Part shown: in pieces, positions 29,705-46,926 of the stretch
How positions within the stretch are numbered: the first letter of the stretch is position 1
How the letters are laid out: each line of letters opens with the position of its first letter
The notes under the pieces: model-generated
What the model was told of the DNA's origin: nothing
The model's database searches: none
Seen by the model: the letters and a program-made list of their open reading frames with translations, nothing else
From: Candidatus Woesearchaeota archaeon
Lineage (GTDB): Archaea; Nanobdellota; Nanobdellia; Woesearchaeales; UBA9989
NCBI GenBank assembly: GCA_013329045.1
Contig: DUKZ01000034.1
Location: forward strand, 1-62,946
Length of the DNA stretch: 62,946 nucleotides
Direction: 5' to 3'
Position numbers and translations under genes: made by a program

Positions 29705-31507
29705 TCAAAATTTGTTCTTCAACAAGAGCCGGGGATAGATGCACATGCTTTTGAGCTCGTCAAGGAAGAGCTTGAATGCATAGCTGATCTCTATGTAAGA
29801 GATGTTCTCCGTCGACCCTGTGAGAGGGCAATAACATTTCTTCTGGTACTTATCTTCTACAGCGATGAGCCCAGACTCCTCTGCTACAGGCACGATGACC
29901 TTGTCAGAGCTGAATCGTTCTTTGAGGAGCAATGACGCTCCATGTGCGATGAAGGTATCTTTTTCCATCTCTCCGAGGCGAAGGCCTCCTTCTTTTGCCC
30001 TGCCTTCTGTTGGCTGCCTGGTCAAGAGCTGGATTGGGCCTCTTGCTCGTGAGTGCAGTTTGTTTGCGACCATGTGCTTGAGCTTCATATAATACATATT
30101 GCCAATGTAGATCTGCGCTTGGTACTGCTCTCCTGTCACGCCGTTATAGAGGGTTTCTTCCCCGTTCTCCTTGAAGCCAAGGTTGAGGAGTTCTTTTCGA
30201 AGATCCATTTCAGCTTCTGCGTCAAATGCAGTGCCGTCGACAAACCGCCCGTTGAGCGCGCCTGTCTTGCCGCCGACGAGTTCGATGAGATGGGAGATGG
30301 TCATTCGTGAGGGAATACCATAAGGTGAAAAGATAAGGTCTGGCTGGATGCCTGATGAGGAAAAAGGCATATCTGACTGTGGCACGATCAGGCCAACGAC
30401 GCCTTTTTGCCCATGCCGTGAGGTGAATTTATCCCCGATCTCAGGGATTCTCTCATCGCGAAGGCGGACTTGTACCAGTTTGTTTCCTTCCCCATTTTCT
30501 GTGATGAGGACAAAATCGACTACTCCCCCCTCGCCGTGCCTGGCAGAGACGCTTGATTCTCTTCTGGTAGAGGAAGCAAGGCTGTATTCATCCATTCCTG
30601 AGAGGAACCGTGGGGGTGATGTCTTTCCGATGACAACGTCTCCTTCATTGACAGCAGCCTCCGGGAAGATGATCCCATCTTCTTCCAATAATCGGTAATC
30701 CCGCTCTGATTTGTACCCTTTGACATCCTTATCCGGGACGGTGATATCATCGATGAGCCCGCCAGAATATCGAAGCTCTTCTGCAATTGCCGGCCGGTAA
30801 TAAGTGGACCTGCCAAGCCCTCGATCAATAGAACCCCGGTTGAGGATAATTGCATCCTCCATATTATATCCTTTATAGCTCATGATGGCAACAATGATAT
30901 TTTGCCCTGATGCATGCTTTGCATAGTTGGATACATCATGCATGATAGTATTCACGATAGGCATTTGTGGATGGTGCAGGATATTTGTGTCCATGTCAAT
31001 CCTGACAGAGAAATTAGAGCAGTAGAACCCGAGCGCTTGTTTTTGGTTTTTTGATCCGGCATTGAGTCGTGCTGATTGGTTGAAGTTCGCATAGGGCACA
31101 AGTGAAGTGCACAGGCCAAGCATGGTCACTGGTGCAATTTCAAGATGTGTGTGTTCTGGGGTGAGTTCAGTTGGGGAAAAAGCAATAAGCGCTCCTTCTT
31201 CTTCTAATGCATCAAGGACTTCGATGATGCCTTGTGAGACAAGGTCTTTCCATGAGAGCTCGTTTTTCTGCAATGATCGCACATGCGCATCAGTGAGGAG
31301 GGATGCTCCCCCTTTGACAACGATAAGAGGCCTTCTTGCCCTGCCTTTGGAGCTCTCAATAGTAACTTCATCGGTGATCCCATCATAGAACACATTAAGG
31401 AGATCAGACATTGTTCCTTTGCGTCTTTCCTGGATGAGTTGCTGGGTGAAAGCTTGCCCATTATCCACATCGCCTACAAATTTTCCGTTCAGGTATACTT
31501 CGCTCAT
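29705..31507 (-). CDS. rpoB1: DNA-directed RNA polymerase subunit B'
   Basis: A 600-residue C-terminal half of the second largest subunit, with the conserved SYKGYNMEDAIILNRGSIDRG, DKFTSRHGQKGVVG and EISYAFKLFLDELKSM segments. The C-terminal zinc ribbon, normally with two CxxC pairs, reads AEESGLI and CPLT, so at most one family ligand remains. It overlaps RpoB'' by 4 nt. The B split is an archaeal feature found in several lineages. Confidence 0.97.
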   Translation of the reverse strand: MSEVYLNGKFVGDVDNGQAFTQQLIQERRKGTMSDLLNVFYDGITDEVTIESSKGRARRPLIVVKGGASLLTDAHVRSLQKNELSWKDLVSQGIIEVLDALEEEGALIAFSPTELTPEHTHLEIAPVTMLGLCTSLVPYANFNQSARLNAGSKNQKQALGFYCSNFSVRIDMDTNILHHPQMPIVNTIMHDVSNYAKHASGQNIIVAIMSYKGYNMEDAIILNRGSIDRGLGRSTYYRPAIAEELRYSGGLIDDITVPDKDVKGYKSERDYRLLEEDGIIFPEAAVNEGDVVIGKTSPPRFLSGMDEYSLASSTRRESSVSARHGEGGVVDFVLITENGEGNKLVQVRLRDERIPEIGDKFTSRHGQKGVVGLIVPQSDMPFSSSGIQPDLIFSPYGIPSRMTISHLIELVGGKTGALNGRFVDGTAFDAEAEMDLRKELLNLGFKENGEETLYNGVTGEQYQAQIYIGNMYYMKLKHMVANKLHSRARGPIQLLTRQPTEGRAKEGGLRLGEMEKDTFIAHGASLLLKERFSSDKVIVPVAEESGLIAVEDKYQKKCYCPLTGSTENISYIEISYAFKLFLDELKSMCIYPRLLLKNKF

Positions 31508-32994
31508 GGGAGTGTCTTTAGCCCAAAATTTCGAAGGCTTTTGATGATGTCCTCATCTGGTGTTTCTTGTGAGATGGTGCAGAGCAATGCAAGGTTTTTT
31601 CGAAGGCCAATGTTCGTTCCTTCTGGTGTTTCGATGGGGCAGAGCCTTCCAAGGTGCGTTGGGTGGAGTTCTCTTGCCTCAAAATTTTCCTGTGAAGAGG
31701 ATAATGGTGAGACGACGCGCTGCAGGTGGCTGAGGAAATCAAGGTAATTGAGCCGCTGGATCCTTTGGGAGATTCCTTTCCTGCCGCCAACCCAAGACCC
31801 TGTGGCCATCGCTGAATAGATTCGGGAGGTGAGCAGTTTGTCGCGGATGATGACCTTGATGGAAGGAAATTTCCCTCTTTTAACGATGCGCTGGAAGTTA
31901 TAGAGCATGTCGCTGATGAGCACTTTAAAGTTGACACGAACAAGGCTTGCGAGAAGGTCGCCAGACATCTTCAGCCGTTTATTCATGTAATGGTCCCGGT
32001 CATCAATAGGGAGCCTTCCGGATTCGACGAGAAGGAACTTTTTCATGTGTTTGCAGAGGTTGTATGCTTTAGCGAGCCGGTCCTCAGGGTTGATCCCGAT
32101 ATGAGGAAGGAGGTATTTGTCGAGCAATTCTCTTGTTCGCTCAACCCGTATCTCTTTTGATTGGGTAATGCCGATTTTTTTTGCGATGTAATCTACGGCA
32201 TCATCCTCATTCTTAATTTCCACAAATTCGTAGAGGTTGATGAGGACTTCATTGAATGGTTCTTTCTTTGACACAACCTTCATGATCTCTTCATCCTTGA
32301 CCATGCCAAGGGCCTTGATGATGACAACAAGAGGCACCCGCTTGATCCGTGTCAGGGTAAGGTAGAAGATGCCATCCTTCATGCGCTCGAGGGTGTGGGG
32401 TATCTTGAATGAGCCTTTCTCTGAGAAGAGTGTTCCGGAAAATGCTGATGGTCCCGTTGATGTTTTGGTGATGAGCATCTTATTTGGGACAAGGTCTTCC
32501 ATGGTGATGAGAACTTTTTCGCTGCCGTTGATGATGAAATATCCCCCAGGGTCCGTTGGGTCTTCTCCCTTCGCGATTAATTCTTCATTTGAGAGCGAAT
32601 GGAGATGGCAGTATTTGCTTTTGAGCATGATAGGCAGGTTGCCGATTTGTGTAGTGAATGACTCTCGCTGCACCCCATTGATATGCGCAGACACTTCGAT
32701 GAAGATGGGAGCAGAATACGTGATTTTTCGAAGGCGCGCTTCAGCTGGAAAGATAGGCCTCTTGCTGCCGTCTGCCTCGATGATCTCTGGCTTTGTGACC
32801 CAGATCTTGTCCATCCGGATCTTGAATTCATCAACATTCTGAGGGATGATAGTCGGCTCTATTTCTTTGTTCTCTTCGATGATATCGTTGAGATCCACTT
32901 CGATGAATGTGTTGAAAGAATCTATGTCCGAAGAAACAAAATTACTTTTTTGGAAGTACTTCTGTATGAGGACTTTATGGGCGATGTTACTCAT
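31504..32994 (-). CDS. rpoB2: DNA-directed RNA polymerase subunit B''
   Basis: A 496-residue N-terminal half of RpoB. Protrusion and lobe segments include GGYFIINGSEKVLITMEDLVPNK and the fork segment RRVVSP-like LQRVVSPLSSSQENFEARELHPTHLGRLCPIETPEGTNIGL at the C-terminus. It overlaps the RpoH stop by 8 nt and RpoB' by 4 nt, so the five RNA polymerase genes are one operon. Confidence 0.97.
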   Translation of the reverse strand: MSNIAHKVLIQKYFQKSNFVSSDIDSFNTFIEVDLNDIIEENKEIEPTIIPQNVDEFKIRMDKIWVTKPEIIEADGSKRPIFPAEARLRKITYSAPIFIEVSAHINGVQRESFTTQIGNLPIMLKSKYCHLHSLSNEELIAKGEDPTDPGGYFIINGSEKVLITMEDLVPNKMLITKTSTGPSAFSGTLFSEKGSFKIPHTLERMKDGIFYLTLTRIKRVPLVVIIKALGMVKDEEIMKVVSKKEPFNEVLINLYEFVEIKNEDDAVDYIAKKIGITQSKEIRVERTRELLDKYLLPHIGINPEDRLAKAYNLCKHMKKFLLVESGRLPIDDRDHYMNKRLKMSGDLLASLVRVNFKVLISDMLYNFQRIVKRGKFPSIKVIIRDKLLTSRIYSAMATGSWVGGRKGISQRIQRLNYLDFLSHLQRVVSPLSSSQENFEARELHPTHLGRLCPIETPEGTNIGLRKNLALLCTISQETPDEDIIKSLRNFGLKTLP

Positions 32995-33235
32995 CTGCTA
33001 CAGCTCGATAAAATATTGTTTCCCCGGCCGTTGGGCTTTTTCTGGTGATCTTAATGACATCATTGACCTGGGCACCTAGTTTTTGCACCATGGTGTCAGA
33101 GATCATGATTTTTGGAAGTTCATGGCTGGTGACTTGATAATGGTCAAATAATTCCTGCTTATCCTTCTGGGATAACTTAGAATGCTGAGGGATCAGGTCA
33201 TGCTTACTGACGATGATTTTTTTTGTCTTCGCCAT
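32987..33235 (-). CDS. rpoH: DNA-directed RNA polymerase subunit H
   Basis: An 82-residue Rpb5 C-terminal homologue. VSKHDLIPQHSKLSQKDKQELFDHY and ELPKIMISDTMVQKLGAQVNDVIKI are characteristic. The ATG at 33235 (MAKTKK) is chosen because an upstream in-frame start at 33277 would overlap the tRNA-Lys gene ending at 33255. It leads the polymerase operon and may be cotranscribed with the tRNAs 20 nt upstream. Confidence 0.95.
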   Translation of the reverse strand: MAKTKKIIVSKHDLIPQHSKLSQKDKQELFDHYQVTSHELPKIMISDTMVQKLGAQVNDVIKITRKSPTAGETIFYRAVADE

Positions 33236-33268
33236 TTTTTTCTTTTGAGTGTGATGGGCCGGACGAGA

Positions 33269-33283
33269 TTTTCTCACTCGTGT
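33269..33283 (-). other. T-loop intron of tRNA-Lys (15 nt)
   Basis: The insertion interrupts the T-loop between TTCGAA and the last T before the T-stem 3' strand CTCGT. Without it, the loop is a standard seven nucleotides. Confidence 0.75.
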
Positions 33284-33324
33284 TTCGAACTCGCGACCAT
33301 CCGGTTAAAAGCCGGATGCTCTAC

Positions 33325-33343
33325 TGCCCAAGCCGAGCGCTTT
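33325..33343 (-). other. D-loop intron of tRNA-Lys (16-20 nt)
   Basis: The D-loop between stems GCTC and GAGC is 29 nt long instead of about 9. The insertion follows AGCCTGG and contains AAGC and GCTT, which can pair. The boundaries are uncertain by about 4 nt because of a repeated TGG. Confidence 0.65.
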
Positions 33344-33392
33344 CCAGGCTGAGCTACCGGCCCATGAGTGTAAAGGGACGCCCTGGCCGGGA

Positions 33393-33466
33393 CTTTCACT
33401 CCGTACAGGCCCCCAGCATCCCGGCACACGAACCGGTATGCCGTATCCAACAACCTGTGACCGGTT
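33393..33466 (-). other. T-loop intron of tRNA-Asp (about 74 nt)
   Basis: This long insertion lies inside the T-loop, between TTCAAA and the T before CCCGG. It contains its own pairing (AACCGGT with ACCGGTT) and may fold independently. The ends are accurate to within a few bases. Confidence 0.75.
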
Positions 33467-33487
33467 TTTGAACCCGGGTCGAAGCCT

Positions 33488-33521
33488 TTTTGCGGTGCGA
33501 AAACGATTGTTTTCGACGCCA
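33488..33521 (-). other. Canonical 37/38 intron of tRNA-Asp (34 nt)
   Basis: The insertion starts after G37 and ends before A38. It contains a perfect 7-bp stem CGAAAAC/GTTTTCG with a short loop, as expected for the internal helix of a bulge-helix-bulge intron. Confidence 0.82.
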
Positions 33522-33541
33522 CGACAGGGCTTCATGATAGG

Positions 33542-33576
33542 TACCGCAGGAAACAAGCAAGGCTAGTTTACCCGAG
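33542..33576 (-). other. D-loop intron of tRNA-Asp (35 nt)
   Basis: The insertion lies between AGTCCGG and CCTATCAT. Joining these restores the standard tRNA-Asp D-arm, very similar to other archaeal tRNA-Asp sequences. Confidence 0.78.
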
Positions 33577-33596
33577 CCGGACTACACCACCAGGGC

Positions 33597-39333: not shown

Positions 39334-40263
39334 ATGAAGCGTAAAGTCATCAGGCAAGGCAACAACACACTGACGATAACATTGCCAAGGGAATGGACAA
39401 CAAAGCACAGCATTGCCGCAGGGGGCGAGATAGAGATGACCATGGCAGAGAAGAGTTTAATCCTGGATCCACCCTCACAGGAGGGCCATCGATCTATCTC
39501 TCTCAATGTTGATACTCTTGGAAGACTCTGCATCGCAAAGCTCCTCATCGCGTGCTATGAGCAAGGGTATGACACAATTACCCTAACGTTTAGGCCAGGG
39601 ACGATCTCCTCCTGGAGTCATGGTGATGAGTCCATCACGGATGTCATCAATTTTTTCACCGCCCGGCTGATAGGTTTTGAGGTGCTCTCCCAGTCAGAAC
39701 GAAGCTTGAGCATCACAAACATATCCGAACAATTCTCCCACGCAGACCAGGTTATCTATCGGATCTTTTTTCTTTTGAAGGAATATGTTGAACAAGGAAC
39801 GCATGCCCTCTCAGATGCCAAGTCAGATCTGGAGATGGGCGAGTCCCGTCATGATGCGATCACAAAGTTTGTTGCATTAGCATCAAGGATCATTCTCAAT
39901 GACGGGGCAAGGCCAAAAAACGACGCAATGCATCTTTTTGTTATCTTCCAGGGGCTCGATAAAGCAGCTGATTTTATCAGGTATGTGTATCGAAATGCAA
40001 AAGACCAGAAGATTGCGCCGGGAGTGCCAAAAGTGATGAGGATGGCAGCAGGATATCTTGAATTGTATCATCAGTTTTATTACAAGTTTTCCCTTGCCAA
40101 GATCAATGAGTTGGATAGGATGAGAGGAGAAATGAAGGATCAATGCAGGATGCTTGCCAGGAAAGGCCAAAACCCTGAGATCGTGATGAGTATTGACGCA
40201 TTTGTTGAGACTATCCATGGCATCATCAAGCCAAAGATTGCGATGGAGACAAAAACGTTTTAA
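39334..40263 (+). CDS. AbrB-PhoU domain phosphate uptake regulator
   Basis: A 309-residue protein starting with a SpoVT/AbrB DNA-binding domain (MKRKVIRQGNNTLTITLPREW, about residues 1-45), followed by a PhoU-like helical bundle (about 110-300, with segments such as DAITKFVALASRIILND and KAADFIRYVYRN). This architecture is widespread in archaea and is thought to regulate phosphate transport, but no pst genes are in the window. The last 4 nt overlap the convergent APH-like gene. Confidence 0.82.
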   Translation: MKRKVIRQGNNTLTITLPREWTTKHSIAAGGEIEMTMAEKSLILDPPSQEGHRSISLNVDTLGRLCIAKLLIACYEQGYDTITLTFRPGTISSWSHGDESITDVINFFTARLIGFEVLSQSERSLSITNISEQFSHADQVIYRIFFLLKEYVEQGTHALSDAKSDLEMGESRHDAITKFVALASRIILNDGARPKNDAMHLFVIFQGLDKAADFIRYVYRNAKDQKIAPGVPKVMRMAAGYLELYHQFYYKFSLAKINELDRMRGEMKDQCRMLARKGQNPEIVMSIDAFVETIHGIIKPKIAMETKTF

Positions 40264-41711
40264 CGAAAGGTTCCCCCACGAAGAACAGCTTCTGCTTTGC
40301 GCTGATAATATTGCCGCTGAGCATATTTTTCCGGATCCATCATATCCCGCTTGTTCATGACAGAATGGCGAAGGACAAGCTGTGAGAGGAATGCTGGTGC
40401 AGCAAGATCATGCATAGTTTTCCTGTACCCGGCTGAGGCATGTTCTTTGAATCCTTCATCATGGGTTGAACGAAGAGTGATATAACGGTCTATCACTCGA
40501 TGAAAGCCATCGAGATCCATGCCAAACCGCATATCTGAGCAAAAATAAGCCAGTTCGTCTACTTCAAGGCCAAGTCCAACCATCGCGAAGTCTACCATGT
40601 ACCCATTGACCATATTCTCAGGTTTCCAGTCCCCTAAGATAACAGTAGGGTGAAAACCCTTATGAGCTTCAAGGTAATCAGCAATGATGCTCTTTTGGGA
40701 AGGCTCCTCAATTTTTGAATCTTTAAATCGGGAATATCCCTCACTGGATACATTAATATGGGGCAGAAAACCCTCATAAAAATGAGGCGCGCCATGAAAA
40801 CCGGTATAAGGAAGATGTTCAAAAAGACCTGTAAAATAAGCCATCTCTTTATGGAAGATACCCATTAACCAGAGGTTATAATCATTATAATCCCCCATGA
40901 AGTTAAATCGTTGAAATGCAAGAGCTGAGCCAGGTTTCAGCCCATTGGTGTTACCAAGATGAAGTATCGCCGGGTCTCTTGGATCTACCATATAAAGGGC
41001 ATGGAAGGGAGGTCTAAAAAGATCAAATTCGGGCAATCTGATGGAATAGACAAGTTGTTCCCGAAGAAGCCTGCTCCCCTGATCAATTTTTAGGAAATCT
41101 GATCCAAATGACAATCCCGCCATTGATGTAAATCCATTAGGGCAGGAGGTTATTCCTTCATCAAGCATATCTCGAAGGTTAAAACATCGGGCCAGAGTTG
41201 CTATGAGAAGTTCTTGGTCCTGGGGCCTGATGTGAGGGAGCGCAGCAAGTATTTCATCAATCGGTGAGTCTGTTTGGCGTGGAAGATCCAGTGAAATATC
41301 CCTGAGAAAAGAGTCAATCCTGTGGACGACACGGGTGTGATGCTCACCAAGGGAAAAGTCGCTCGAATCATCACTATAGGTATCCCATGCTTCTTGTTCA
41401 GAATAGGAAACAATAGGTTCGTCAGAGGTAATTACATGCACATCATGAATCCTATTACCGCCAATACCATAGATATGATAAGCTCGTTCAGAATGAGTGA
41501 TGAGATACTCAAACCCTCTTAATGATTTAATCATCACATTCTTTCTCCAAAAATTCTCCTTCCGTTCCTTATATGCATCTGCTCTCCCTCTCTCTTCAGA
41601 ATGATATTGTGTATCCAGAACAGTGTAATGATGTTGAGAAACAAGACGATGCACCATTTTATCTAATGAAAAATATTCAGATTCCGGAATAACCTCAACC
41701 TCGGATCGCAT
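40260..41711 (-). CDS. APH/choline-kinase-like phosphotransferase
   Basis: A 483-residue protein with a C-terminal kinase-like core. VILGDWKPENMV (about residues 355-366) matches the catalytic loop HGDxxxxN, and GYMVDFAMVGLGLEVDELAYF matches the DFG-like metal-binding Asp with following helix. The N-terminal 150 residues include a probable adenine-binding lobe. Members phosphorylate small alcohols such as aminoglycosides, choline or fructosamine, and here the substrate is unknown. It lies just outside the tRNA-Tyr duplication bracket. Confidence 0.68.
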   Translation of the reverse strand: MRSEVEVIPESEYFSLDKMVHRLVSQHHYTVLDTQYHSEERGRADAYKERKENFWRKNVMIKSLRGFEYLITHSERAYHIYGIGGNRIHDVHVITSDEPIVSYSEQEAWDTYSDDSSDFSLGEHHTRVVHRIDSFLRDISLDLPRQTDSPIDEILAALPHIRPQDQELLIATLARCFNLRDMLDEGITSCPNGFTSMAGLSFGSDFLKIDQGSRLLREQLVYSIRLPEFDLFRPPFHALYMVDPRDPAILHLGNTNGLKPGSALAFQRFNFMGDYNDYNLWLMGIFHKEMAYFTGLFEHLPYTGFHGAPHFYEGFLPHINVSSEGYSRFKDSKIEEPSQKSIIADYLEAHKGFHPTVILGDWKPENMVNGYMVDFAMVGLGLEVDELAYFCSDMRFGMDLDGFHRVIDRYITLRSTHDEGFKEHASAGYRKTMHDLAAPAFLSQLVLRHSVMNKRDMMDPEKYAQRQYYQRKAEAVLRGGTFR

Positions 41712-42551: not shown

Positions 42552-42570
42552 AGTCCCCGCGGCCGGATTT
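42552..42570. repeat. tRNA-Tyr 3' end, proximal copy of the duplication
   Basis: The last 17 nt of tRNA-Tyr plus two flanking bases match the copy at 41773-41791. This is the usual layout for integration into a tRNA 3' end. Confidence 0.75.
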
Positions 42571-42678
42571 GAACCAGCAACCTCATGGTATCAACAGCTG
42601 ATCATGTTTCATCCAAGCATCCGTGCACGATCCACATGACTTCTACAGCCATGCGCTCTACCGTTGAGCTACGCGGGG
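42554..42678 (-). tRNA. trnY: tRNA-Tyr (GUA) with one intron
   Basis: The acceptor stem is CCCCGCG/CGCGGGG with C1-G72, the identity pair of archaeal tRNA-Tyr, and discriminator A. The D-arm is GCTC-AACGGTA-GAGC. The anticodon arm is CATGG-CTGTAG...A-CCATG, so the anticodon is GTA. The T-arm is GCTGG-TTCAAAT-CCGGC. A 53-nt intron sits at the canonical 37/38 position. Mature length is 72 nt. No CCA is encoded. Confidence 0.92.
42590..42642 (-). other. Canonical 37/38 intron of tRNA-Tyr (53 nt)
   Basis: The intron lies between G37 and A38 and contains an internal stem TCATGT/ACATGA, consistent with a bulge-helix-bulge substrate. It holds no open reading frame. Confidence 0.82.
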
Positions 42679-42703: not shown

Positions 42704-44155
42704 TTATAAAGGTTTTGGCGCTTCTTCTTTTGGAGCCTGTACATTCACTTCAGGAGAATACGTTGCCCGTTTCCATGTCCCTTGAGAAAATTTCACAATT
42801 GTCGGAGGCAATTTGAAGCTGCCCAGGATCGTTAGTTTTGATCGTATGGTGTACGTGATCACCCGCTCCTCATATCCTTCGAGCTCTGGTAGTACCCAGC
42901 TAACAATTGTCCCTTTTGTCTCATGCCGGAGCACTTTTTCTGGCTTGAGTGTTCCGATCTTGAACACATTGACAAGCTCTGCAATGTTTGGGACATGCTC
43001 AATGACATGCACATTAGTGATGGTCTGGGGGGTCCTGTTCTTGGCGACAACTACCAATTTTATCTCTGAGATGCCCCCCTCCCGAAGCTGGATGTCAACT
43101 GGCCCCTTTGTGGCAATGATCGGTGAGCGGAGGAGATAATACGCAAGGGCGATCACGATGATGATGATAAGCAGCAAGAGCAAGGGAACATATGTTGTAG
43201 TGATCGTCAGCACCTCTTCTTGTTGTGGATCAAGGGAAAGCTTCCAGGAAAAGTATGCCATTCCATCTTCCCTGACCTTTTCTGAGGGGGGAAGGGTGCT
43301 GGTAAGCAGCCATGACATCATGCTGGTTGGCACCTTGACGATGCCCTCATTGTGGATATTCCCCTCATTTTTTATGGAGAATGTTTTTTTCTTTGAGAGG
43401 AATCCTCGTTGTTCAGTGCCAGGTTTTTCGACGAATGTTGAGTAGCTGGCAATAGTGAATTGTCGCTCGATCTCCTTGAACGTTTGGCCTTCTGAGATGA
43501 AACTGATGAGGAGGTCACCTGTTATGGGGGGGGTTGTTTTGTCAAGATTGATATTGAATGTGACGACGCGTGTCTCTAATGGTCCAAGGGAAAGTTTTTG
43601 CTGGTCCTTGAAGTTGCTGCTGTCAAGAGTGATGAGGAGGTCGGTGATGTTCACAGGGTATCTGTTTCTGATCTCGAGGCTGATCTGATTCGTTTTTCTG
43701 GAATCAAGGGTCTTTGGCATATCAAGGATGGTCTTGACTGCGACGGGCTGGCCTGGTTCCCAGTCTCCATAAGCTTGGAAGTTTACAGAAATTTGGGGTG
43801 TTTTGAGTTCTCCTGTCTTTTCTGACCGGATGTTTATTGGGATCATATAGGTGCCTGGCCGCACATAGAGGGGTGAGACTTTCAGGGTAGTTGATTTGAC
43901 AGTGTCAGCGGGGATCCTCAGGGTGCTCTCAGAGAGGGGGTCTGTTGAGATGTCCCATTCAACGTCGGTATAATATATCCGAAAGCTGTCATCAAAATCC
44001 TGCGCGTTTGTGATGCTGACCTTGAAAAGCGCTTCTTCATCAAGGCTGATCTGGTTCTTTAATGGCTCTATATAGACAGCAAAGGAGGATGCTCCAAAGA
44101 CTGCAGGAAGAAGTAGTAAGAGGAATACGGTTCCAAGGAAGAGCCGCCGCGCCAT
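42704..44155 (-). CDS. Membrane-anchored extracellular protein with CARDB-like domains
   Basis: A 483-residue protein with an N-terminal signal peptide (MARRLFLGTVFLLLLLPAVFGAS). The extracellular part has beta-sandwich repeats about 90 residues long (e.g. NQISLEIRNRYPVNITDLLITLDSS), and a membrane helix rich in Ile/Leu lies at about residues 323-345. Residues 350-480 after the helix form another domain with a conserved-repeat (DUF11-like) look (NRTPQTITNVHVIEHVP). It resembles other archaeal surface proteins, function unknown. The gene's 3' end lies about 25 bp from the tRNA-Tyr 5' end. Confidence 0.7.
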   Translation of the reverse strand: MARRLFLGTVFLLLLLPAVFGASSFAVYIEPLKNQISLDEEALFKVSITNAQDFDDSFRIYYTDVEWDISTDPLSESTLRIPADTVKSTTLKVSPLYVRPGTYMIPINIRSEKTGELKTPQISVNFQAYGDWEPGQPVAVKTILDMPKTLDSRKTNQISLEIRNRYPVNITDLLITLDSSNFKDQQKLSLGPLETRVVTFNINLDKTTPPITGDLLISFISEGQTFKEIERQFTIASYSTFVEKPGTEQRGFLSKKKTFSIKNEGNIHNEGIVKVPTSMMSWLLTSTLPPSEKVREDGMAYFSWKLSLDPQQEEVLTITTTYVPLLLLLIIIIVIALAYYLLRSPIIATKGPVDIQLREGGISEIKLVVVAKNRTPQTITNVHVIEHVPNIAELVNVFKIGTLKPEKVLRHETKGTIVSWVLPELEGYEERVITYTIRSKLTILGSFKLPPTIVKFSQGTWKRATYSPEVNVQAPKEEAPKPL

Positions 44156-44451: not shown

Positions 44452-46926
44452 ATGGTGGGGAGATGGTGGGTAGTTCTTGTCTTGGGTATCATCCCTATTA
44501 GCTTCGCATTTTCTCCATTACAAACAGAGTTTAAGGTGAACACGCTCGCTGAAGGCAACCAGTCTCAACCGATGGTCCAGGTCCTATCCGATAGGTTTAT
44601 CGTTGTATGGAACAGGAATGGTACGAATGATGGAATTTTTGCTCAACAGTTTGATATGAACGGGGAAAAGATTGGTGGAGAGATCAGGCTGGATGATGAG
44701 CAGGGCATCCCAAGTTTCCCGTTTATCGCTCCATTACCTGAGGGATTTGTTGTCGCTTGGCAGGAAAAAATAAATGATACCCTCTTTGCCAGAGTTAAAT
44801 CATTTGATGGGCAAGGTAGCAGCATCAATGCTGCTCTCCTGCAAGGATTCTCCACCAATCAGTATATAATAAAGCCAACGGTAGTCATCTTGCCCAGCAA
44901 TATTGTTGTTGGATGGAATGAGGCAGGCAATTCTACTGTGTATGTTCTCAATGGGGATCTGAGTGTGGCAACCTCCTTGCAGCCGATTAAGAGCTCGAGA
45001 AGTGTTCCTGCAGTCTCCTATGAGTCTGAGGTATCTTTTCTGAGGCTATGGAAAAATTATTCAACGCCAAATGATCTCATTGCTCAGCATTTTTCTCCTG
45101 AAGGAATAGCCCTGGATGATCCCTTTGTTATTTTCCAGGACATGCCGGGTGTTGAGTTTGATGTGGTGCGGGTCTTTGATGATCATTTTTTTGCGCTCAG
45201 TGACTCTGCAGGTTCATATCGATTGATAGTCGTGCAGCTTCCAAATGGCACTCTAGTGGAAGTTGGCCAGGCAACTGTTGACGAGTCGCCATTTCCCCAT
45301 ATTGCAGCTAAAAACGGTCGGCTCTTTGTCGTCTGGCATGGGTATGATCAGGTATATGGCCAGGTGTTTGATGAATCAGGAAAAAATGTGACAGATGTCT
45401 TCATGATTGCCCAGCCTTCTTTGAGTTGGGGCAGGTTTCCTTCTGCAGCATTCCTGCCAGATGGCCGCGCAATTGTTGCATGGCAGCGGGATGATGAGAT
45501 ATTCGCCCGGTTTGTTGGCGATGATGATGATGAGGATGGCATTTTCAATGGGATGGATGGATGCCCAGGGGTGCCTGGAAATTTCTGCAATGGTTGTCCA
45601 GACCCGGAGTGCGGGGTATGTGCACAAACCTTTTGTGAGGCGAATGCAAGTCCTCGTTGCTCTTATTACAACACATCGATGCTAATTGAAGATGCACCTC
45701 TCTGTTCCGCTGGAATGGGCGACAATAATTATGGTACGGGCGGGGAATACTTGTGCAGGGGATATTGTGATGGTGCAGGCACCCCAGATTATGCTGATGC
45801 ATGTATCTATGATCCATTCTGTGACTCAGATGATGATAATGACGGCGATCCTGACGTAACTGACTGCGCCCCGAGCGACCCCTCAAGGTTTCATGGCGCC
45901 AAAGAGCTGTGTAACGGCATTGATGAGAACTGTAATGATATCTATGATGGGGAAGAAAACCTTACCATGGCATGCGGTGTTTCAGATGTTGGCCTGTGCA
46001 CTTTTGGCACTGAATCCTGCTCGAATTCCGGTGAGTGGAATGAGTGTTCTGCCGTTTTCCCGGCTGATGAGATCTTTGATAATGGGCTCGATGAGGATTG
46101 TGATGGGACAGATACCCCAGCGCCGTGCAGGATCATCTCACCAATTGGAGATTTTTTCACGAAGAGGAGCCTGCAGATATTTTTCATGTGTAACCAGACG
46201 TATGATAAGATAGAGTATACGATGGATGGGCGTTATCTGAGAACGCTATGTAAAAATTGTTATTTTTATAAGGGTCTAAAGTCTTTTCGCGACAATGAGA
46301 ACAATCTTGTCATAACGACAAGAAAAGGGCAGGAGGTAAGTGAATACTACTCTAATTTTACTGTTGATGTCAGGCCGCCCAAGCTGCAGCGTATTGAGCC
46401 ATCAAGGGGATTCGCAATTGATAAGTTCACCGTGAAATACACCGAAGAGAATTGCATGTCCCTCTCGCTGAAGATCCAGGGCCAATTTGACAGTGTTAAT
46501 CAGACAAGAGCCTGCCAGTCTGGAAAGAATATTGAGCAGGAGTTCGTGTTCAACCTCTCCCATTTTGAAGGCAGGATCGTCGATGCAATCGCATCGGTCA
46601 CTGATATCAATGGGGGCTCTGACACAAAAGTTGCAAAGCATTTGGCAGTAGACACCTTGCCACCCCATATCTTGTCAGTGAATACGACTCAGCAGGGCAG
46701 GTATACCTATTGGAAGATCCAACTGGATGATAAGGCAAAATACTTGTGGTATGTCAATCTGGATACGGGGAAGAAAAAGATTCTTTGTTCTTGGTGTAAT
46801 GATTATGGTATATCCAGCCAAAGGAAGGAATATATCAAGCCTGGCACGTATCATTATTCCTTTACTGCAGAGGATAGTGCAGGAAACCAGGACACATTCT
46901 CCCCTCTGGCTCTCAGTGTGGTATAA
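44452..46926 (+). CDS. Secreted protein with beta-propeller and MopE-like Asp-rich repeats
   Basis: An 824-residue protein with a signal peptide (about residues 1-20). Residues 25-360 have propeller-like repeats (VVWNRNGTNDGIFAQQFD, later VVWHGYDQVYGQVFDESG). Residues about 360-565 contain thrombospondin type 3/MopE-like Ca-binding and Cys-rich segments (DDDDEDGIFNGMDGCPG, then ELCNGIDENCND and NGLDEDCDGTD). Ig-like C-terminal domains follow. No C-terminal anchor is obvious. A GATTATATAG box (44421-44430) implies a nearly leaderless start. It is probably cell-surface or adhesive. Confidence 0.75.
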   Translation: MVGRWWVVLVLGIIPISFAFSPLQTEFKVNTLAEGNQSQPMVQVLSDRFIVVWNRNGTNDGIFAQQFDMNGEKIGGEIRLDDEQGIPSFPFIAPLPEGFVVAWQEKINDTLFARVKSFDGQGSSINAALLQGFSTNQYIIKPTVVILPSNIVVGWNEAGNSTVYVLNGDLSVATSLQPIKSSRSVPAVSYESEVSFLRLWKNYSTPNDLIAQHFSPEGIALDDPFVIFQDMPGVEFDVVRVFDDHFFALSDSAGSYRLIVVQLPNGTLVEVGQATVDESPFPHIAAKNGRLFVVWHGYDQVYGQVFDESGKNVTDVFMIAQPSLSWGRFPSAAFLPDGRAIVAWQRDDEIFARFVGDDDDEDGIFNGMDGCPGVPGNFCNGCPDPECGVCAQTFCEANASPRCSYYNTSMLIEDAPLCSAGMGDNNYGTGGEYLCRGYCDGAGTPDYADACIYDPFCDSDDDNDGDPDVTDCAPSDPSRFHGAKELCNGIDENCNDIYDGEENLTMACGVSDVGLCTFGTESCSNSGEWNECSAVFPADEIFDNGLDEDCDGTDTPAPCRIISPIGDFFTKRSLQIFFMCNQTYDKIEYTMDGRYLRTLCKNCYFYKGLKSFRDNENNLVITTRKGQEVSEYYSNFTVDVRPPKLQRIEPSRGFAIDKFTVKYTEENCMSLSLKIQGQFDSVNQTRACQSGKNIEQEFVFNLSHFEGRIVDAIASVTDINGGSDTKVAKHLAVDTLPPHILSVNTTQQGRYTYWKIQLDDKAKYLWYVNLDTGKKKILCSWCNDYGISSQRKEYIKPGTYHYSFTAEDSAGNQDTFSPLALSVV

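Follow-up and report, generated by a model that had tools for sequence, protein, structure and literature searches.

A tRNA-Asp(GUC) gene with three predicted introns in Woesearchaeales, an order with recurrent D-loop and T-loop introns and an apparently alpha4-type splicing endonuclease

In a stretch of 62,946 nucleotides (nt) from a tiny, uncultured Candidatus Woesearchaeota archaeon (assembly GCA_013329045.1, contig DUKZ01000034.1; hereafter the window, meaning the whole stretch analysed), the transfer RNA gene trnD is divided by three introns, one each in the D-loop, the anticodon loop and the T-loop. The locus as a whole is best explained as a working tRNA-Asp(GUC) gene whose introns are of the bulge-helix-bulge (BHB) type and would be spliced by the endonuclease EndA and the ligase RtcB, a reading that we consider highly probable. 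Transfer RNAs with three introns are already known, as are multi-intron tRNAs in two lineages of DPANN archaea. What is new is that this known kind of intron and gene is common in one order, Woesearchaeales, together with what looks like a type of enzyme not expected alongside it.

The gene lies on the minus strand (33596-33379), exactly where it had been predicted, and has a precursor of 218 nt and a mature form of 75 nt. Intron 1, in the D-loop at 20/20a, measures 35 nt, intron 2, at the canonical 37/38 site, 34 nt, and intron 3, in the T-loop at 59/60, 74 nt, in agreement with the original prediction (35, 34 and about 74 nt). On the sense strand, with intron lengths in brackets, the 5' half reads GCCCTGG-TG-GTGT-AGTCCGGC-[35]-CTA-TCAT-G-AAGCC-CTGTCG-[34] and the 3' half A-GGCTT-CGAC-CCGGG-TTCAAA-[74]-T-CCCGG-CCAGGGC-G. 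Exon 1 (33576..33596) comprises the acceptor 5' strand, U8 and the 5' part of the D-arm as far as C20, and is followed by intron 1 (33541..33575); exon 2 (33522..33540) holds the end of the D-arm, the anticodon 5' stem AAGCC and the loop CUGUCG with the anticodon GUC, ahead of intron 2 (33488..33521). Exon 3 (33467..33487) runs from A38 through the anticodon 3' stem GGCUU, the variable loop and the T stem 5' strand to U54-A59, and beyond intron 3 (33393..33466) exon 4 (33379..33392) supplies U60, the 3' strands of the T stem and acceptor, and the discriminator G73. In the spliced form all standard pairs are present in the acceptor (7/7), anticodon (5/5) and T (5/5) stems, and the D stem consists of G10.U25, U11-A24 and G12-C23 plus a U13.U22 mismatch. 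The predicted boundaries of the anticodon-loop and T-loop introns are fixed, because their BHB register is common with relatives; that of the D-loop intron could move by about one base.

ARAGORN called no tRNA on the 218-nt precursor and tRNA-Asp(gtc) on the spliced 75-nt sequence, which bears out the claim that the gene folds as tRNA-Asp(GUC) only once its introns are removed. The Rfam tRNA model missed trnD even in a 500-base search at E<=1. A strict intron-aware scanner was also used, demanding that every pair form in the acceptor stem (7/7), the anticodon stem (5/5) and the T stem (5/5) and that conserved loop letters be present, and permitting up to three introns, one in each of the D-loop, anticodon loop and T-loop; its rules did not require central-helix pairing between exon and intron. 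Applied to the 63-kb window it returned three genes (trnY, trnD and trnK), and in 30 first-order Markov shuffles none. The tRNA census of the archaeon's own genome, a draft in 55 contigs that is about 90% complete, combined Rfam matches with patterns, and within this assembly neither Rfam nor an anticodon-arm pattern found a second trnD. Other near-matches to the anticodon arm were rejected as second copies, being tRNA-Glu and two non-tRNA places. The gene at 33379-33596 is apparently the sole working tRNA-Asp(GUC) gene of this genome.

Folding the junctions, a check proposed with the original prediction, gave central helices of 3 bp in the D-loop, 3/4 pairs in the anticodon loop and 4/4 in the T-loop, the motifs of the D-loop and T-loop being relaxed. 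At intron 1, C17, C17a and G18 pair with the intron (CCG/CGG) beside a U.U mismatch at 16, with a 5' bulge GC|T and an inner helix CGGG/CCTG; in relatives, the D-loop helix of trnD is CUG/CAG or UCG/CGA at the same place. Intron 2 has the central helix CUGU/GCAA, bulges CG|U and AA|A, and an inner hairpin CGAAAAC/GUUUUCG. At intron 3 the central helix UUCA/UGAA is flanked by a 5' bulge AA|A and a 3' bulge AG|U, and no contiguous inner helix directly follows it, in contrast to the other two introns, where an inner helix is seen. Self-splicing is a scarcely conceivable alternative for such inserts: group I introns do occur in rRNA genes of Woesearchaeota (PMC6125680), but 34-74 nt is far too short for the catalytic core of a group I or II intron, the boundaries obey the BHB register, and no Rfam family save the neighbouring tRNA matches the trnD region, even at E<=1.

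The register of the T-loop motif is shared by a larger set of introns. Exon bases U54, U55, C56 and R57 pair with intron positions -6 to -3, after which come two intron bases and U60; among 107 T-loop introns, 86 form 4/4 pairs and 21 form three, and the mean number of pairs is 3.80 in register as against 0.95-2.5 when the helix is slid by 1-3 positions. The central helix of the anticodon loop has four pairs in 31/41 trnD introns. Base 57 varies in step with the intron base that it faces (A-U in 57 cases, G-C in 26, A opposite C in 1, G opposite U in 8; Fisher P 8e-15, a value inflated by relatedness), and a tree-based covariation test corrected for ancestry found just one well-supported independent pair. 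The T-loop motif is relaxed, because many of these introns (67/107), like intron 3 of the window, have no contiguous inner helix.

The full precursor is predicted to fold with its T stem unformed. The 144-nt form without the T-loop intron has as its minimum-energy fold a cloverleaf with the anticodon-loop motif and the D-loop helix, in which the 5' bulge GCU of intron 1 appears exactly. Since neither the D-loop motif nor the T stem emerges in the prediction until the T-loop intron is gone, the modelling suggests, as a hypothesis, that this intron would leave before the others.

RpoB'' places the genome among Woesearchaeota, to which its named relatives belong, in keeping with the prediction of a DPANN host for three introns, two of them at non-canonical sites; the comparison set contains no genome of the same family. 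Woesearchaeales loci yielded 84 distinct trnD genes for the survey, one of them the window's own, and comparison with these relatives showed introns recurring at the same three sites. Introns are present in 74/84 genes and a T-loop intron in 61/84; ten genes have no intron, 37 have one, 27 have two and ten have three. With D, A and T denoting introns in the D-loop, anticodon loop and T-loop, the patterns are none 10, A 9, T 25, D 3, AT 21, DT 5, DA 1 and DAT 10. The gene had been presented as singular, with a T-loop intron of unusual size; neither description is supported, for all three introns occur in 10/84 genes, and T-loop introns range from 13 to 94 nt (median 31), seven other trnD genes exceeding the 74 nt of the window. 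Errors of assembly or chimeras would be conceivable in a draft of 55 contigs, but dozens of independently assembled genomes bear introns at these same sites, so that this source of the inserts has a negligible probability. Two further trnD genes were left unparsed by the scanner, one (L193) with a seemingly long insert at the T stem and the other (L203) with a T-loop insert of more than 110 nt. A three-intron trnD and a woesearchaeal rpoB'' also stand on a contig labelled Candidatus Aminicenantes bacterium (L086, JAFCCF010000044.1), which is probably misbinned.

Exon identity to the window's trnD averages 93% over 83 relatives and reaches 100% in some, whereas the introns are no more alike than shuffled sequences (T-loop 0.35 vs 0.33; anticodon loop 0.44 vs 0.41), those of the D-loop lying slightly above them (0.49 vs 0.43). 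Across the order, these comparisons indicate, the mature tRNA-Asp sequence is held while introns turn over. They bear as well on the proposal that trnD is a decayed pseudogene with insertions, a working copy lying in the unassembled 10% of the genome. The incompleteness of the assembly and the absence of perfect BHB motifs would accommodate a pseudogene, but all exon segments are intact and conserved, many relatives have insertions at these three sites as well, and the position of the gene, upstream of trnK and of the genes for RNA polymerase, is conserved; we regard decay as very improbable.

A minimum of 7 changes for the T-loop intron, 11 for the D-loop intron and 7 for the three-intron state was counted on the RpoB'' tree (FastTree, 70 labelled rows, many weak branches), and the triple state is therefore probably of repeated origin, as far as such a tree can indicate. 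In other orders of the class, 17 parsable trnD genes had a D-loop intron in 0/17 and a T-loop intron in 3/17. An origin of the window's introns by transposition was considered and rejected, as they show no similarity to other introns in the set of 239. Elsewhere, in L137 (JACPIF010000006.1), the T-loop intron of trnD is 87% identical over 71 nt to that of trnK at the same locus, and a stretch of 31 nt in the anticodon-loop intron of this trnD recurs at 97% identity in its T-loop intron, apparent signs of transposition between genes and between sites. In two different genomes, the T-loop intron of trnD (L078) and that of trnP (L122) have 83% identity across 81 nt.

The genome has a single EndA gene (G000:C29:130440-131057) and one RtcB gene. 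In size EndA agrees with an alpha4-type enzyme, a single gene product of about 180 amino acids (aa), and it has one catalytic domain bearing Y, H and K. Across 40 genomes, this one included, PF01974 had one match in 37, none in one, two full copies in one and two partial matches in one, and in an alignment of 28 EndA proteins the catalytic Tyr, His and Lys are invariant. Relative to Methanocaldococcus jannaschii EndA the alignment of these 28 shows no insertion; the Crenarchaea-specific loop (CSL) and the ARMAN-specific loop (ASL) are insertions of single lineages with a lysine close to the active site, and EndA here may have a functional equivalent of them. The acidic loop near the C terminus of the M. 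jannaschii enzyme is kept (IVDDEGDVTYY), and the predicted structure (predicted local distance difference test, pLDDT, 89) has that enzyme as its best structural match (1a79; template modelling score, TM, 0.80; 35% identity). Gene number, size, fold and the conserved acidic loop together suggest that EndA is a homotetrameric (alpha4) enzyme encoded by a single gene.

In the literature, non-canonical introns are linked with enzymes of the (alpha beta)2 or epsilon2 type and with their special loops (PMC4033280, PMC4090602, PMC12397907). A heteromeric endonuclease whose divergent second subunit escaped the searches would fit that pattern, Nanoarchaeum equitans having an (alpha beta)2 enzyme of the type linked to non-canonical introns (PMC4033280, PMC4090602) and its catalytic subunit (3iey_A) being the best PDB sequence match of our EndA. 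As a query, however, this EndA is sensitive enough to retrieve the N. equitans structural subunit at 7.8e-18, yet it found neither a second copy nor a separate structural subunit at E<=1 in its own, about 90% complete, genome; the single PF01974 match in 37/40 genomes, the acidic loop and the structural match to 1a79 also speak for alpha4. A hidden subunit thus seems unlikely, and it would alter the view of the enzyme only, leaving the reading of the gene unaffected. That a loopless alpha4-type EndA removes relaxed-motif D-loop and T-loop introns throughout Woesearchaeales is a proposition that we place just on the probable side.

Under the preferred reading of a working, spliced gene, trnD would be transcribed as the 218-nt precursor, probably as one unit with the tRNA-Lys gene that follows after 15 nt. 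A BHB-type motif would arise at each boundary through pairing of the exon with the 3' end of the intron. EndA would cut both strands of each motif, the alpha4-like enzyme having to accept relaxed motifs in the D-loop and the T-loop, and RtcB would join the exons into the 75-nt tRNA, releasing the 35-, 34- and 74-nt introns, probably as circles. Over the history of the order, introns at the three sites would have been gained and lost with the mature sequence held. Several points weigh against this reading. None of the three introns forms a perfect hBHBh' motif, because introns 1 and 2 each have one central-helix mismatch and no contiguous inner helix is seen in intron 3; the covariation P value takes no account of shared ancestry, and too few independent pairs are available for the tree-based test to decide; the unassembled part of the genome could harbour another, intact trnD or a further endonuclease subunit; and the splicing of trnD is predicted from the gene sequence.

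Comparable genes are found in several lineages. In Thermoproteales (Crenarchaeota) a tRNA gene may carry as many as three BHB introns, placed at canonical as well as non-canonical sites, and introns also appear to move between tRNAs (PMC4033280, PMC8450103). That order belongs to a different phylum and has an (alpha beta)2 endonuclease with the Crenarchaea-specific loop, as opposed to the one alpha4-like gene, seemingly without the loop, in Woesearchaeales, and the window's introns are dissimilar to others in the set. The original prediction knew of no well-described DPANN case; a 2014 review, however, lists multi-intron tRNAs for N. equitans and ARMAN-1/2 (Micrarchaeota), DPANN members with several introns per tRNA gene as here (PMC4033280). 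They have either an (alpha beta)2 enzyme or an epsilon2 enzyme that bears the ARMAN-specific loop, whereas EndA of Woesearchaeales is a single short protein that seems to correspond to neither. Outside DPANN, some Asgard genomes, those of Atabeyarchaeia and Freyarchaeia, have introns in 92-95% of tRNA genes, many non-canonical, with several introns in over half of the genes (PMC11291895); these lineages are unrelated to Woesearchaeales, and the comparison covers the tRNA genes. The tRNA-Ile(UAU) of the eukaryote Cyanidioschyzon merolae has introns in the same three arms, at 12/13 and 53/54 in the D and T arms as against 20/20a and 59/60 here, and its anticodon intron seems to be removed last, after those of the D and T arms (PMC9602550). 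For the enzyme, M. jannaschii EndA (alpha4, 1a79) offers the closest fold, a similar size and the same catalytic Y/H/K, but the alpha4 type is described for the standard motif, and here relaxed D- and T-loop motifs would be its substrates. A search of the open-access literature for tRNA introns in Woesearchaeota yielded one paper, on group I rRNA introns (PMC6125680), and none on the tRNA introns themselves, an absence that is no proof.

Along the minus strand the gene order is class I tRNA synthetase, trnD, trnK, rpoH, rpoB'', rpoB', rpoA', and trnD and trnK lie upstream of rpoB'' in most relatives. The tRNA-Lys(UUU) gene (33255..33363, minus strand), which was absent from the original prediction, has two introns, one of 20 nt in the D-loop (33343-33324; central helix GCCU/GGGC) and one of 15 nt in the T-loop (33283-33269). 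The GTG start of the rpoH open reading frame (32987..33277, minus strand) falls within the end of trnK, which makes a later ATG the probable true start; rpoB'' (31504..32994, minus strand) was used to fetch relatives. The third tRNA gene of the window, tRNA-Tyr(GUA) (42554..42678, minus strand), served for comparison and has one 53-nt intron at 37/38. In Woesearchaeales (the window, L042, L064, L092, L126 and others) this trnY intron is 50-60 nt long and has a conserved core of UGAC, a hairpin, GGAUGA and then CAGC, with a weak consensus fold; this kink-turn-like core could be an intron-encoded guide RNA. Pfam gave no match for either of the 483-aa proteins that flank trnY (40260-41711 and 42704-44155); paralogy between them was tested and dropped, as they are unrelated to each other. 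An 824-aa protein (44452-46926) weakly matches the MopE metal-binding motif.

Among the 29 parsed Rfam tRNA matches of the genome, only trnK has introns outside 37/38. A pattern search for further tRNAs with T-loop introns found none, the pattern being blind to introns above about 40 nt or with divergent ends. Gly, Met and Asn tRNAs were not among the parsed matches and may lie on missing contigs or be further hidden genes. The genome also has two tRNA-His(GUG) genes (G000:C51:19768-19838 and C53:7178-7289) of differing sequence, one intronless and the other with a 40-nt anticodon-loop intron; judging by this difference, one of them may be foreign in origin.

A relative with a 1.3-Mb single-contig genome (G010:C1, L238-L257) illustrates how such genes can be overlooked. 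Rfam reported only 14 tRNAs there above its cut-off, and an intron-aware scan of 30% of the genome recovered three more that Rfam had missed at that cut-off, at 70367-70589, 227758-227876 and 368947-369079, with T-loop introns of 100, 45 and 31 nt and the anticodons CAT, TCG and TAA, respectively. Another scanner match (324473-324651) was discarded as a false positive, being AT-rich and without a motif. As the Rfam tRNA model can miss intron-bearing genes, apparent tRNA losses in such archaea can be artefacts. If the loopless alpha4 reading is true, it would break the proposed rule of coevolution by which non-canonical introns accompany (alpha beta)2 or epsilon2 enzymes, and some of the tRNAs encoded in many DPANN genomes would escape standard tRNA finders. 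A DPANN order dense in D-loop and T-loop introns, and seemingly endowed with the simplest enzyme, would offer a direct test of the link between introns and endonuclease architecture.
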